From the IMG/VR virus record IMGVR_UViG_3300036900_000064, positions 1 to 41,656 of that record: a stretch of 41,656 bases of DNA. The stretch is one strand, 5' to 3'. Below are positions 7,271-11,035 of this stretch, piece after piece. The DNA comes from a virus. The notes below the pieces were generated by a model. That model was not told the origin of the DNA, did not search any database, and saw only the letters and a list, made by a program, of their open reading frames with translations. Made by a program: the position numbers and the translations under genes. Position 1 is the first letter of the stretch; each line of letters opens with the position of its first letter.

Positions 7271-8020
7271 TCAGACACGGCGGTGTCGCACCGCGCCGAG
7301 TCCAAGCAGACCCATGCCCAGGATCGCCAGCGTGGCGGGCTCCGGCACGTCGGCCGTCACCGAGGGGACCAAAAAGAAGCTCTCAGCGCCGTCGCTGGCA
7401 TTGCTCCACCGGGCGTAGAACAGGATGCCGTCGCCGAGGTCGATATCGCCGCGATCGATGTTGAAGCCGCTCAACACGTAGTCGGGAAAACCAGTGCCGT
7501 TATTGTTGGTCGGCAGTGGCGTGCCGTTCGCCGGGTTATAGTCGGCCATGATGGTATGTTGCGTTGTGTTAATGATAGCGAACCGCTCCAGCACCTCGGG
7601 GCCTTTTCCCGCCGCCGTATTGACATCGATGCCGACATTCAGTGTGCCGTCGAAATCGAGTTGGGCCAGCAGGAAGGCGCGCAGGAACGACACGAGATAT
7701 GGCGTGCCCATCACATCGTTGTCGAGGCTCTGATGGCCGGTAGCAGCGGTCGAGAAATCGCTGAACGCGGTTTGGTTGCCGCCCTGTTTGTAGTTGTTAT
7801 AGCCGAACAGTGTCGCCTCTTGCTGCGGTTGCTGCGTGCCGCAAATCAAACAAGGCGAATTGAGCGGCTGATTGCCCGGTGGCGGTACGGCTATGAGCGA
7901 CAACGCCGACGTGTTGGCGTTGGCCGTGTAGCCCAACGTCGAGATGATGTCAGCCCGCGCCGTGGGGTGGAAGAACATCGCCCCGGTGACGATGGCCGTG
8001 GTCATCAACAATCGTTTCAT
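7271..8020 (-). CDS. PEP-CTERM sorting-signal protein (secreted, exosortase substrate)
   Basis: This 249-aa product starts at the ATG at 8020, preceded by AAAGGGA. Residues 1-23 are a Sec signal peptide (MKRLLMTTAIVTGAMFFHPT, then ARA). The body is Asn/Thr/Gly-rich and of no family I can name. The C-terminus is a textbook PEP-CTERM module: VPEPATLAILGMGLLGLG followed by AVRHRRV, i.e. the PEP motif, a hydrophobic span and a basic Arg cluster. In bacteria this signal is cut by an exosortase and goes with exopolysaccharide-producing envelopes. No exosortase is encoded here, so host EpsH-type machinery would be needed. A body upstream start at 8101 lacks the signal peptide at the N-terminus and is rejected. 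Confidence 0.85.
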   Translation of the reverse strand: MKRLLMTTAIVTGAMFFHPTARADIISTLGYTANANTSALSLIAVPPPGNQPLNSPCLICGTQQPQQEATLFGYNNYKQGGNQTAFSDFSTAATGHQSLDNDVMGTPYLVSFLRAFLLAQLDFDGTLNVGIDVNTAAGKGPEVLERFAIINTTQHTIMADYNPANGTPLPTNNNGTGFPDYVLSGFNIDRGDIDLGDGILFYARWSNASDGAESFFLVPSVTADVPEPATLAILGMGLLGLGAVRHRRV

Positions 8021-8138
8021 CGTGTGTTTCCCTTTGTGTTTGTGTTCGTAGCCACTCATTCTGGCGCTCCAGATCCTGTACAAGCAACTCCAGTTCTTCA
8101 ATCTGGCGGCGCAGCGCGTTGATGAGATCCGGAACCAT
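7950..8138 (-). CDS. 62-aa coiled-coil protein overlapping polymerase stop and PEP-CTERM start
   Basis: ATG at 8138 shares one base with the polymerase TGA (TGATG), and the polymerase's last codons AAA GGG supply a Shine-Dalgarno-like sequence. Residues 4-35 form a heptad helix (ALRRQIEELELLVQDLERQN). The tail (about 44-62) is His/Asp-rich and is read out of frame through the signal peptide of the PEP-CTERM gene, overlapping it by 71 nt. The helix resembles leucine-zipper-type regulators or small phage helical proteins. No function can be assigned. Confidence 0.6.
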   Translation of the reverse strand: MVPDLINALRRQIEELELLVQDLERQNEWLRTQTQRETHDETIVDDHGHRHRGDVLPPHGAG

Positions 8139-11035
8139 CACCCTTTTGAATACCTCGGCCCGCGCGACCCCTCGGCCCGCAGAGGAAAGCCCTCGCCCCA
8201 GGCGGGCAGCTCCGACATGATCGCGCACATGGAGTCCACATCGCCAAACCCCACCGGAGGCTCGCAGACGACCTCGTCGTGGATCAGTGTGAGCGGCCTG
8301 TAGCCCTCCTGCTCCAACCGTAGCGCCGCGTGGACGAGGAGATCGCGACAAATCGCTTGTACACAGTTCTCGACGAGCCGACCCCCGTACGTCTGCTGCC
8401 TCTCCCACTTCTTGGTCAGCGAATTAACGCTCATATACGACACGCAATCGTTGCCGAAGCGACCTGTCTCGATCAACGGCTGGCTGTACCAGATGTAGCG
8501 TCCACTCGGCAGGCGCATCCTTAGCCACTTACGGTCCATACGAAACCGAATGCGTCCGCCCGCCACCGCCGTCGCCTGACCGGGATGACGCACGGCGTTG
8601 ATCGCCGCCTGGTTCATGTTCTCCCACAAGAGCGGTATTTGTCTGTAAGTTCTGCGATAGACGCCCACGGCGCGTTCCGCCTCTTCCGGGGCGAGGAGGA
8701 TGTTGGCGGTAGCGATGCAGGTCTCCCTGAACTTGTACCACCCCATCTGATAGCCGCAGCCGAGCACGCAGTTAGAGACAATCAGGGGTTCATCAGAACC
8801 AGTCAGGATCGTGAAGCGATGCCTCGGTCCCGCGTTCGCCAGATCGTAGACGGGCCTCAAGGTCTCTGATGCGCTCTTCCATTTCATTGATCTTGCGTCT
8901 GTTGAGCGCGTTTTGAGAGTGGGTCGCGAAACGGATATTGCCGGGCTCGTAGCCCCGGTTGTTGTCGGTTCTGTCCATGTCGAGGCTAGGGTCGTCCCAT
9001 CCTGGGATGGTCTGGATGTAGCGGAGGAAAGTAGAACGATCGTTTCGCCACTCATCGCATACGAATATCCCCCGGCCGCCATAACTGGCGTAGATCCGGC
9101 TGGAGGGGGAATGGCAGCGAGTGATGGCAGCGGCCAGACGATTGAGCAGGCGCGATCGGTGAGCCACGTCAGGCAGCGCGTTTTCATAGATCCAATAGCG
9201 CTTTTCATGGCCCGCCCTTCGGCCGCAGATACCGCAACGAGTGCTTCTAAAGTGTTTGAAGTTGTTGAGCGCGACAGAGAACTCCGGCCTTCCGCAGCTA
9301 CATCTGACGACGAGGGCTGATAGCCCGTGGCGTTCCCCCTGGATGTAGCCCGTGACGGTAAGTTGGCCACTGCGAGTGCCGATTTCAGGGAGGGGTTGTT
9401 TTCGCCGTGTGCCAGATACCGCGCTTCCCGCCATCCTGTCCCGCACCACACGCGGTGATCCGGCGTCAACGAGATGCCTGACAAATTCAACGTTTTCTTC
9501 AAACCTTGTTTCAACAGGCCGTCGTGTCTGACCCACTCGATACCGTCCCATAATTTATGCGCTGTCGTTACGTCCTCGATAGCGACAGGCCCTCGGTCAG
9601 TCAATACCCGTGTCCCAGCACCCAGGCATGTTTTTCCTACAAACCGGGCCTTGCTGTCCTTGGTGACGGTAGCGGGATCGATCCCGTAAACGCGGCCGCC
9701 CATTTCCTCATAAATCTTCCGCTTCTGGCGGAACGCCTCGACCAGATCGTCCTGCCCCGCCAGCCACGCCACGCCCGCCGCTTCGACCGAGGCGAAATCG
9801 CCCGCCGCGATCTCGTGGCCCTCGGCGGGGATGATCGCGCCGCGCAGCATCTTCGAGACGACAGCGAGCGGCGGGCCGGCGATGGCGTCCACCATCGCGG
9901 CGCCGTGATCCAGCAGCGCGCGGTGGCCTTCCCAGTCCGCGACAACGTCGCGGGGGAAATTCTGCACCTGCAGCCCTTGCGAGATATACCGCCCGGTCGA
10001 TGCCCCGTGGTAGCCGAGCAGGCCTCGCACGCGGCCATCGGCGTTCGATCGTTCATGGATGGCGTATAACTTCTTGACCGATATCTTGCCGGCCTCCAGG
10101 CGGCACCGGAGGACGCTCTTTTCCAACAACCCCACGCGGGGATCGGCGAGCAGGCGCTGAACATCGCGCCGCCGCAGATCGGGGGTCGCCTCCTCTTCCG
10201 GCTCAGCCTCTTCCAGGTATTCGAGCAGATCGCCCTCGCGGGCAAGGTCGGGCGGCGGGGTCAGATCGACACCGCGTTTCATCAACCACGATTTGAGCAG
10301 ACCGATCTCGGAAGTCTTACGGACCACGCCGACAGTCAGCAGCCGCATGTCATTGTTCAACAGCGCCTGGGTTTCTTCGGCGACGATCCGCGCGGCCTGG
10401 ACAAAAGAGTGATCGAATCTCACGCCCCTGTCGTTCATGGTTTCCGTCAAATCCCAGACATCGAGTTCCGGCTGGGGCAGGGCGGCGGTGGAGCGGTATA
10501 TCCGGCGCTCCACTTTCACGTCGGTCGAGCAATAGTCGGACAGGCGCGTCATGCGGTCCTCGTCTTCCCACCACGCCAGGGAGCCATCCGATGTCCGCCT
10601 CGGTTTGCACATCTGGAGCATGAGGCGGTAGCCGTCGCCGTCTTTCTTCACCGGCAAGCCCAAGGCCATCCCCGCCCCGTCGAGGCTGGCCGGCAGGGCC
10701 TGGGCGCGGGCGCGGGCCATCGTGCAGATCCAACGATCGATCGCGACCAGGGGCCAGCCATGGCGTGGATGCAGGACGCCCTCGATCAGCAGCCGCTCGA
10801 ACTGGGCATTATGAGCGACGACCTCTTTCGTGGGGTCTTCCAGGTGAGCGCGGTATTTCGGGAGGAGTTCCCGCCCCGGCCGCCACTCCCACGGCTCTTC
10901 CATGCCGAGCGCCAGGCGGGCGACGGTAACCGAGGTGGAAGGGTCCGACGCATAGACGTATGCGCCGGTCTTCCTGAGATCGACCGTGCTTCTGGTTTCC
11001 AGATCCAGAAACAGCAGGTCGCCGATGTCGGTCAT
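8138..11035 (-). CDS. Family A DNA polymerase with 3'-5' exonuclease, interrupted by an intein
   Basis: The 965-codon ORF encodes a 679-aa polymerase (extein) plus a 286-aa intein (residues 470-755). The exonuclease domain shows Exo I FLDLETRS (9-16), Exo II VVAHNAQFERLL (about 92-103) and Exo III LSDYCSTDV. The polymerase domain shows motif A (AAGDFASVEAAGVAWL), motif B split by the intein (RFVGKT / CVLGCGYQMG; R-x3-K of the O-helix) and motif C (TLIHDEVVCEPP). All catalytic acids are present. The start ATG overlaps the stop of the preceding gene (ATGA). The enzyme would be the replicative polymerase, working with the primase-helicase, SNF2-like helicase and SSB encoded nearby. Confidence 0.93.
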   Translation of the reverse strand: MTDIGDLLFLDLETRSTVDLRKTGAYVYASDPSTSVTVARLALGMEEPWEWRPGRELLPKYRAHLEDPTKEVVAHNAQFERLLIEGVLHPRHGWPLVAIDRWICTMARARAQALPASLDGAGMALGLPVKKDGDGYRLMLQMCKPRRTSDGSLAWWEDEDRMTRLSDYCSTDVKVERRIYRSTAALPQPELDVWDLTETMNDRGVRFDHSFVQAARIVAEETQALLNNDMRLLTVGVVRKTSEIGLLKSWLMKRGVDLTPPPDLAREGDLLEYLEEAEPEEEATPDLRRRDVQRLLADPRVGLLEKSVLRCRLEAGKISVKKLYAIHERSNADGRVRGLLGYHGASTGRYISQGLQVQNFPRDVVADWEGHRALLDHGAAMVDAIAGPPLAVVSKMLRGAIIPAEGHEIAAGDFASVEAAGVAWLAGQDDLVEAFRQKRKIYEEMGGRVYGIDPATVTKDSKARFVGKTCLGAGTRVLTDRGPVAIEDVTTAHKLWDGIEWVRHDGLLKQGLKKTLNLSGISLTPDHRVWCGTGWREARYLAHGENNPSLKSALAVANLPSRATSRGNATGYQPSSSDVAAEGRSSLSRSTTSNTLEALVAVSAAEGRAMKSAIGSMKTRCLTWLTDRACSIVWPLPSLAAIPPPAGSTPVMAAGGYSYAMSGETIVLLSSATSRPSQDGTTLASTWTEPTTTGATSPAISVSRPTLKTRSTDARSMKWKSASETLRPVYDLANAGPRHRFTILTGSDEPLIVSNCVLGCGYQMGWYKFRETCIATANILLAPEEAERAVGVYRRTYRQIPLLWENMNQAAINAVRHPGQATAVAGGRIRFRMDRKWLRMRLPSGRYIWYSQPLIETGRFGNDCVSYMSVNSLTKKWERQQTYGGRLVENCVQAICRDLLVHAALRLEQEGYRPLTLIHDEVVCEPPVGFGDVDSMCAIMSELPAWGEGFPLRAEGSRGPRYSKG
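8771..9628 (-). other. Intein in polymerase motif B
   Basis: The intein starts at Cys470 (block A: CLGAGTRVLT), has block B with the TxxH motif (GISLTPDHRVW), block F (RPVYDLANAGPRHRFTI) and block G ending VSN, followed by Cys+1 of the extein (C756). It sits right after the catalytic Lys of the O-helix, a place where inactivation is total unless it splices. The penultimate residue is Ser rather than the usual His. Between blocks B and F the intein frame encodes about 170 low-complexity Ser/Thr/Ala residues with no family resemblance. That stretch is where the HNH gene is read in another frame. Confidence 0.9.
8793..9434 (-). CDS. HNH homing endonuclease gene nested out of frame inside the intein
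   Basis: In the frame one base upstream of the polymerase frame there is a 213-aa ORF starting MAGSAVSG, with GGGA about 5 nt before the ATG. It has a Cys cluster (CSCG, then CGICG about 30 residues on) and the C-terminal signature of phage HNH endonucleases: IYASYGGRGIFVCDEW, then LDMDRTDNN, then GYEPGNIRFATHSQNALNRR. The first convincing family residues are TRSGQLTVTGY, near residue 18. The frame remains open upstream to 9551. The whole gene lies within the intein coding sequence. An intein-HEN fusion restored by frameshifting, or paired sequencing indels, are alternatives. Confidence 0.8.
   Translation of the reverse strand: MAGSAVSGTRRKQPLPEIGTRSGQLTVTGYIQGERHGLSALVVRCSCGRPEFSVALNNFKHFRSTRCGICGRRAGHEKRYWIYENALPDVAHRSRLLNRLAAAITRCHSPSSRIYASYGGRGIFVCDEWRNDRSTFLRYIQTIPGWDDPSLDMDRTDNNRGYEPGNIRFATHSQNALNRRKINEMEERIRDLEARLRSGERGTEASLHDPDWF

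Follow-up and report, generated by a model that had tools for sequence, protein, structure and literature searches.

A phage DNA polymerase intein and its relatives with a predicted HNH endonuclease gene in an overlapping reading frame

Introduction

In the textbook intein the endonuclease is a domain of the intein chain itself. Inteins in which an endonuclease of the HNH type is fused in frame are known (Dalgaard et al., 1997, in the passage of PMC5050341 that cites it), and the endonuclease of canonical inteins lies between blocks B and F at a conserved insertion site (PMC6801210). An endonuclease uncoupled from the intein chain is found in fractured genes, in which it stands free between the halves of a split intein (Dassa et al., 2009, as quoted in part of PMC10448857). 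Group I introns with internal endonuclease ORFs are a further case of a nested, separately translated ORF within a self-removing element. The ShiLan element of phage methylase genes contains an out-of-frame HNH gene. Its insert is open in the frame of the host gene, the HNH is read in another frame and the distribution is patchy and homing-like; its authors found no support for reading the insert as an intein or as an intron (Arsenault et al., 2025; PMC11855218). Our full-text literature searches returned no paper on an intein that contains an endonuclease out of frame; a 2025 preprint by Gosselin and colleagues, outside the coverage of these searches, reportedly deals with actinobacteriophage inteins of 'non-canonical architecture' and may report part of this.

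Here we analysed a viral contig (IMG/VR record IMGVR_UViG_3300036900_000064, positions 1 to 41,656; 'the window') in which a family A DNA polymerase gene carries an intein and an HNH endonuclease gene is nested within the intein in another frame. As in canonical inteins, the endonuclease is encoded between blocks B and F; in contrast to them, it is not part of the intein chain but is read in the -1 frame, or in the +1 frame in some relatives, from a probable start of its own. Unlike in fractured genes, the intein of the window is continuous and should splice in cis, and the HNH overlaps the intein frame; intein halves in separate ORFs were seen in the upstream inteins of two relatives (L026 and L028), not in the window. 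Unlike group I introns, the element would be removed at the protein level, and the host frame stays open through the nested ORF. ShiLan differs by the lack of intein blocks and of predicted splicing and by its non-essential host gene, whereas here intein blocks are present, the insertion is in motif B of a polymerase, and the genes, the phages and the scale are others. Judged by sequence, the element is an intein by its splicing features, combined with a homing-type endonuclease whose layout falls outside the in-frame definition.

Results

The polymerase of the window contains an intein

The coordinates of all features are collected in Table 1. The polymerase ORF matched phrog_17 (E=6e-83), phrog_10285 (E=4e-50) and Pfam DNA_pol_A (E=6e-8). 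An initial annotation, made from the letters alone, had placed an intein in this ORF and an HNH gene out of frame inside the intein. Boundaries and splicing blocks were borne out at exactly these positions, and the nested -1 ORF is indeed an HNH gene (phrog_374, E=2e-34; phrog_3377, E=3e-22).

Table 1. Features of the polymerase locus of the window and of two related arrangements. Positions refer to the window unless another record is named.
Feature	Position	Strand	Remarks
Family A DNA polymerase ORF including intein	8138..11035	(-)	965 aa, one open frame
N-extein	9629..11035	(-)	C-terminal end ...RFVGKT, in polymerase motif B (O-helix, presumed)
Intein	8771..9628	(-)	286 aa, Cys1 to Asn286, +1 Cys; polymerase residues 470-755
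N-terminal splicing region, blocks A and B (TPDH)	9407..9628	(-)	alignment; AlphaFold pLDDT
Dual-coding core	8840..9409	(-)	HNH read in -1 frame; polymerase frame modelled as disordered
C-terminal splicing region, blocks F and G (VYDLANAGPRHRF...LIVSN)	8771..8851	(-)	conserved blocks
C-extein	8138..8770	(-)	N-terminal start CVLGCGYQMG; phrog_10285, phrog_7766
HNH endonuclease ORF, -1 frame	8793..9551	(-)	252 aa from first ATG (9551)
Most likely translated HNH	8793..9536	(-)	247 aa from GTG, intein nt 93
SD-like GGGACGG	9543..9549	(-)	coded for by the intein's conserved W-D-G; anti-SD energy -7.7 (start 9536)
CxC...CxxC zinc-ribbon-like motif of HNH	9225..9302	(-)	C84, C86, C106, C109 invariant in 11 HNHs
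HNH nuclease motif region (H131...YGGRGI...DMDR...GYEPGNIRF...N..NRR)	8895..9161	(-)	invariant alignment columns
Two inteins in L144	2316-3254 and 3516-4355		one +1 HNH, one -1 HNH
Split upstream intein	L026 3640-4659, L028 3640-4659		fractured-gene layout in polA

The insertion point lies in what we take, from knowledge of family A polymerases, to be motif B (O-helix). Because the intein breaks this motif, an active polymerase should require splicing. Cys1, block B (TPDH), block F (VYDLANAGPRHRF), block G (LIVSN) and the +1 Cys are all present. The penultimate residue is Ser instead of the usual His, as in 3 of 123 relatives. A penultimate His is not universal and known inteins differ at this position, therefore Ser does not disqualify the element. 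Among the 123 relatives Cys1 and the TxxH motif are each conserved in 121 and the penultimate His in 119; the last Asn and a +1 Cys, Ser or Thr were found in all 123, counts which were in part preselected by the search pattern. By its splicing features the insert is a bona fide intein for which splicing is predicted.

AlphaFold models were weak overall (pLDDT 65 for the HNH, 38 for the intein frame). In the intein frame residues 1-73 reached mostly 55-81, and the splicing ends behaved alike; residues 74-263 had mostly 20-30 and were modelled as disordered. The low-complexity stretch noted earlier between blocks B and F was modelled as unstructured and spans about 190 and not 170 residues. Fold searches with the HNH and with the intein frame gave no match at E<=0.001; the best matches of the intein frame were mostly inteins, that of the HNH was PacI (E=0.6).

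Beside the polymerase gene, at 7271-8101 on the same strand, we noticed a 276-aa ORF with a PEP-CTERM sorting signal at its end (TIGR02595, 22.7 bits, above cut-off), which is unusual for a phage genome. The ORF had no match in PHROG.

The HNH gene has a conserved probable start of its own

In the HNH frame intein nt 93 is the first base of an ATG, GTG or TTG in 96 of the 102 relatives with a -1 HNH, and in many members an HNH-frame stop is located just ahead of it. Across these 102 relatives the median anti-SD energy at this start was -6.9, compared with -2.2 in background windows. In the window the GTG at 9536 scored -7.7 and the ATG at 9434 scored -4.3. Since a start with a strong SD-like site at this position is common to the relatives, GTG 9536 is more likely to be used than ATG 9434, which the initial annotation had favoured (213 aa); the HNH still has a probable start of its own and an SD-like site. 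In phage SETP3 the sole other start up to codon 80 is the GTG at nt 126, a weaker one. The SD-like purines are owed to protein-level conservation of W-D-G and therefore support the start but do not prove it; conservation of a site fixed by these codons may be incidental. A scan of bacterial genomes with the HNH retrieved no relative, and a plasmid search gave weak HNH matches only, the best at about 26% identity.

The layout is shared by related inteins

Relatives were collected by searching with the HNH, with the polymerase plus intein, and with the Hint-N region alone. All scans were seeded with the Hint lineage of the window; the Hint-N-only scan removed bias from the core. The relatives (L numbers denote single records) came from IMG/VR contigs, Vibrio phage 97.13, Pseudomonas phage MR14, EBPR siphovirus 2, Jerseyviruses (SETP3, Ent1 and others) and Kagunaviruses. 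The 140 distinct Hint-N copies included 126 continuous inteins and 8 split N/C halves with an HNH between them. In the continuous inteins the HNH was in the -1 frame in 102 and in the +1 frame in 21, was undetectable in 3 and was in frame in none; since one Hint lineage seeded the scans, this zero applies to that lineage and does not extend to HNH inteins at large. The 123 nested copies correspond to 88 + 21 HNH clusters at 90% identity and to 52 + 17 at 70%. As a control, 86 other HNH copies were inspected and none was inside another ORF extending more than 100 codons past both ends. Hence the layout proposed at the outset is kept among the homologues, with no fusion to the HNH in frame in any of the 123.

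An annotated out-of-frame HNH was absent from all annotated phage records examined, which give only polymerase or intein. The Ent1 record annotates the intein with identical boundaries as 'encoding splicing domains' and has no HNH; in the Ijeoma record the entire ORF is labelled 'endonuclease'.

Three inteins of 143-158 residues in which an HNH was not detected (L254 4754-5228, L259 3500-3929, L274 3500-3953) look like true mini-inteins. Possibly they are ancestors or end products of HNH loss. Within the -1 family two insertion points were seen four codons apart in motif B, GKT/C and GKTTILG/C (window 9628/9629 compared with L001 3924 and L033 2424), which suggests site drift or retargeting.

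Both frames are constrained, each in a different way

Over the HNH region of the window 15 stops occur in the third frame and none in the polymerase frame. Synonymous shuffling of the HNH codons produced a mean of 4.5 polymerase-frame stops, and none at P=0.001. Likewise, the cores of the 123 relatives contain no polymerase-frame stop where synonymous shuffling predicts 352 + 127 (479); in the third frame they contain 1464 + 217 (1681) stops. A stop in this part of the polymerase frame would abolish the polymerase, which is why the frame is kept open there.

Substitutions were compared in two groups. For the HNH, polymerase and third frames, respectively, pN/pS was 0.15, 0.86 and 2.4 in Jersey- and Kagunaviruses (n = 10) and 0.23, 1.25 and 1.7 in IMG/VR phages (n = 5); such plain counts are biased by the overlap, and a window-by-window test therefore weighs more. 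In windows of 20 codons, exteins and splicing blocks differed mainly at polymerase codon position 3, whereas the core differed mainly at polymerase position 2, i.e. the wobble position of the HNH. This held in both groups. Constraint passes from one frame to the other at the intein blocks, as was seen at both ends of the core. The pattern indicates that the HNH is very probably a separately translated gene selected for function. In the core the polymerase frame is, by these substitutions, constrained to little beyond staying open, and the AlphaFold models agree with this division between splicing ends and core. In L028 the HNH contains a nonsense codon and the intein frame is intact, a decay that is expected of an independent gene. 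The initial expectation of two proteins from overlapping frames, in which the nuclease preserves its motifs and the intein frame stays free of stops, is thus supported by layout and substitution patterns: selection is purifying in the HNH frame and, in the core, does hardly more in the polymerase frame than keep stops out.

Filled and empty alleles

The SETP3 intein region was matched by 602 phage records, and 163 of them contain at least 80% of it; among the matches listed, most of the remainder cover only the C-extein, beginning at the insertion point. Two empty alleles, celemicas and S103, were aligned to the joined flanks and were identical at 541/600 and 571/599 positions with an exact junction. 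Empty sites in Jerseyviruses read GKA/CELG, and L037 and L038 are intein-less homologues. In five IMG/VR phages pN was lower in the intein core (0.12) than in the C-extein (0.30). The clean filled and empty alleles of Jerseyviruses are as expected for homing.

Just downstream of the SETP3 polymerase gene a second putative HNH endonuclease is annotated (L034 4268-4765). Several endonucleases crowd this locus.

Origins and neighbouring arrangements

In a phylogeny of the HNHs, computed from few columns and with many unresolved forks, the -1 class formed one supported group and the +1 class appeared in at least three places. This implies that the out-of-frame layout arose at least three times, with HNHs of different lineages and in either alternative frame, as far as sequences can tell. 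The +1 class is also present in helicase (L261, L275) and terminase (L272) genes. In each of four relatives (L144, L174, L190, L201) a single polymerase gene has two inteins, both with an out-of-frame HNH, which is in -1 for one intein and in +1 for the other. In L026 and L028 a split intein with a free-standing HNH is located upstream of the overprinted intein in the same polymerase gene; a stop closes Hint-N, the HNH follows in another frame and Hint-C opens a new ORF. Furthermore, the HNH of the upstream L144 intein is sister to that of the split intein in L129. The co-occurrence and the sister relationship together indicate that overprinted and fractured arrangements are evolutionary neighbours.

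Discussion

The data are best read as a mobile intein over which its homing endonuclease is printed out of frame, as a gene of its own; we put the probability of this reading at almost nine in ten. One chain would be translated, consisting of N-polymerase, Hint-N, about 190 unstructured residues, Hint-C and C-polymerase. To judge by their conserved residues, the Hint halves would splice themselves out and restore the polymerase. Ribosomes would also start within the Hint-N coding sequence, presumably at the GTG or ATG that follows the SD-like GGGACGG, and a free HNH protein would be made in the -1 frame, as selection on that frame suggests. Upon co-infection the HNH would cut intein-less polymerase alleles, and repair would copy the whole element in. 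For this homing step we rely on the HNH family, on filled and empty alleles and on the spread across divergent polymerases.

Instead of internal initiation, programmed -1 ribosomal frameshifting out of the polymerase frame might yield the HNH as a fusion. In the -1 class, ribosomes that slip by -1 in Hint-N would arrive in the HNH frame, and 16 of 102 inteins have a slippery heptamer within the first 240 nt. However, the other 86 have none, and the 21 inteins with a +1 HNH cannot use such a shift; this speaks against frameshifting as a general route. The HNH-frame stops just before the conserved start, and the single start position in 96/102 with a strong SD-like site upstream, make it improbable as well. 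That the layout is mimicked by sequencing or assembly frameshifts, or that the HNH is a dead passenger, has next to no credit. Paired indels can imitate such a layout, and the L028 HNH carries its nonsense codon. Yet 123 distinct inteins, including those of isolated phages, have the layout, and sequencing error is excluded because relatives from independent projects share it. The HNH frame has a pN/pS of 0.15-0.23, and the polymerase frame lacks stops to an extent far beyond chance; both readings were refuted by homologues and pN/pS.

Protein splicing itself may be questioned, the HNH region leaving as an RNA intron or the insert being tolerated as a loop, since out-of-frame HNH insertions of the ShiLan type are known without intein features (PMC11855218). 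Here, however, every intein block is present and conserved, the polymerase frame is constrained at the blocks and the insert is in a conserved motif of the polymerase. Rfam at gathering thresholds gave no match in the whole window, the group I intron core included, which speaks against an RNA intron; the out-of-frame HNH is shared with ShiLan but the intein blocks set the element apart. Absence of splicing is thus very improbable. Phage HNH proteins have several roles, and the HNH could be translated and serve another one, e.g. cleavage of host or competitor DNA. This we consider unlikely, since the element that contains the HNH has exact empty counterparts in close relatives, and such HNHs recur within inteins. 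We therefore favour a mobile intein with a separately encoded homing endonuclease.

Beyond the window, we think it likely that overprinted inteins are a widespread, polyphyletic and unrecognised class. HNH genes would have entered mini-inteins of polymerases, helicases and terminases at least three times, in either wrong frame, would have been kept as a second gene over an unstructured loop, and would interconvert with fractured split inteins. If true, this interconversion is a concrete route by which inteins gain, decouple and lose endonucleases.

A whole lineage thus appears to encode its endonuclease as a separate overlapping gene, and the layout, present in more than 100 related phage inteins, among them those of familiar Salmonella phages, was overlooked. 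About 160 deposited phage records are concerned, mostly of Salmonella and Escherichia phages, and the annotations examined give polymerase or intein only. In 'mini-inteins' with long unstructured inserts the other frames are worth checking for endonucleases. The endonuclease can decay without harm to the splicing frame, as in L028, and may be expressed independently of the spliced chain. The inteins also offer a clean example from nature of long overlapping genes on the same strand, where selection per frame is separable site by site, and with the Jerseyviruses and others tractable phages are at hand for studies of homing.
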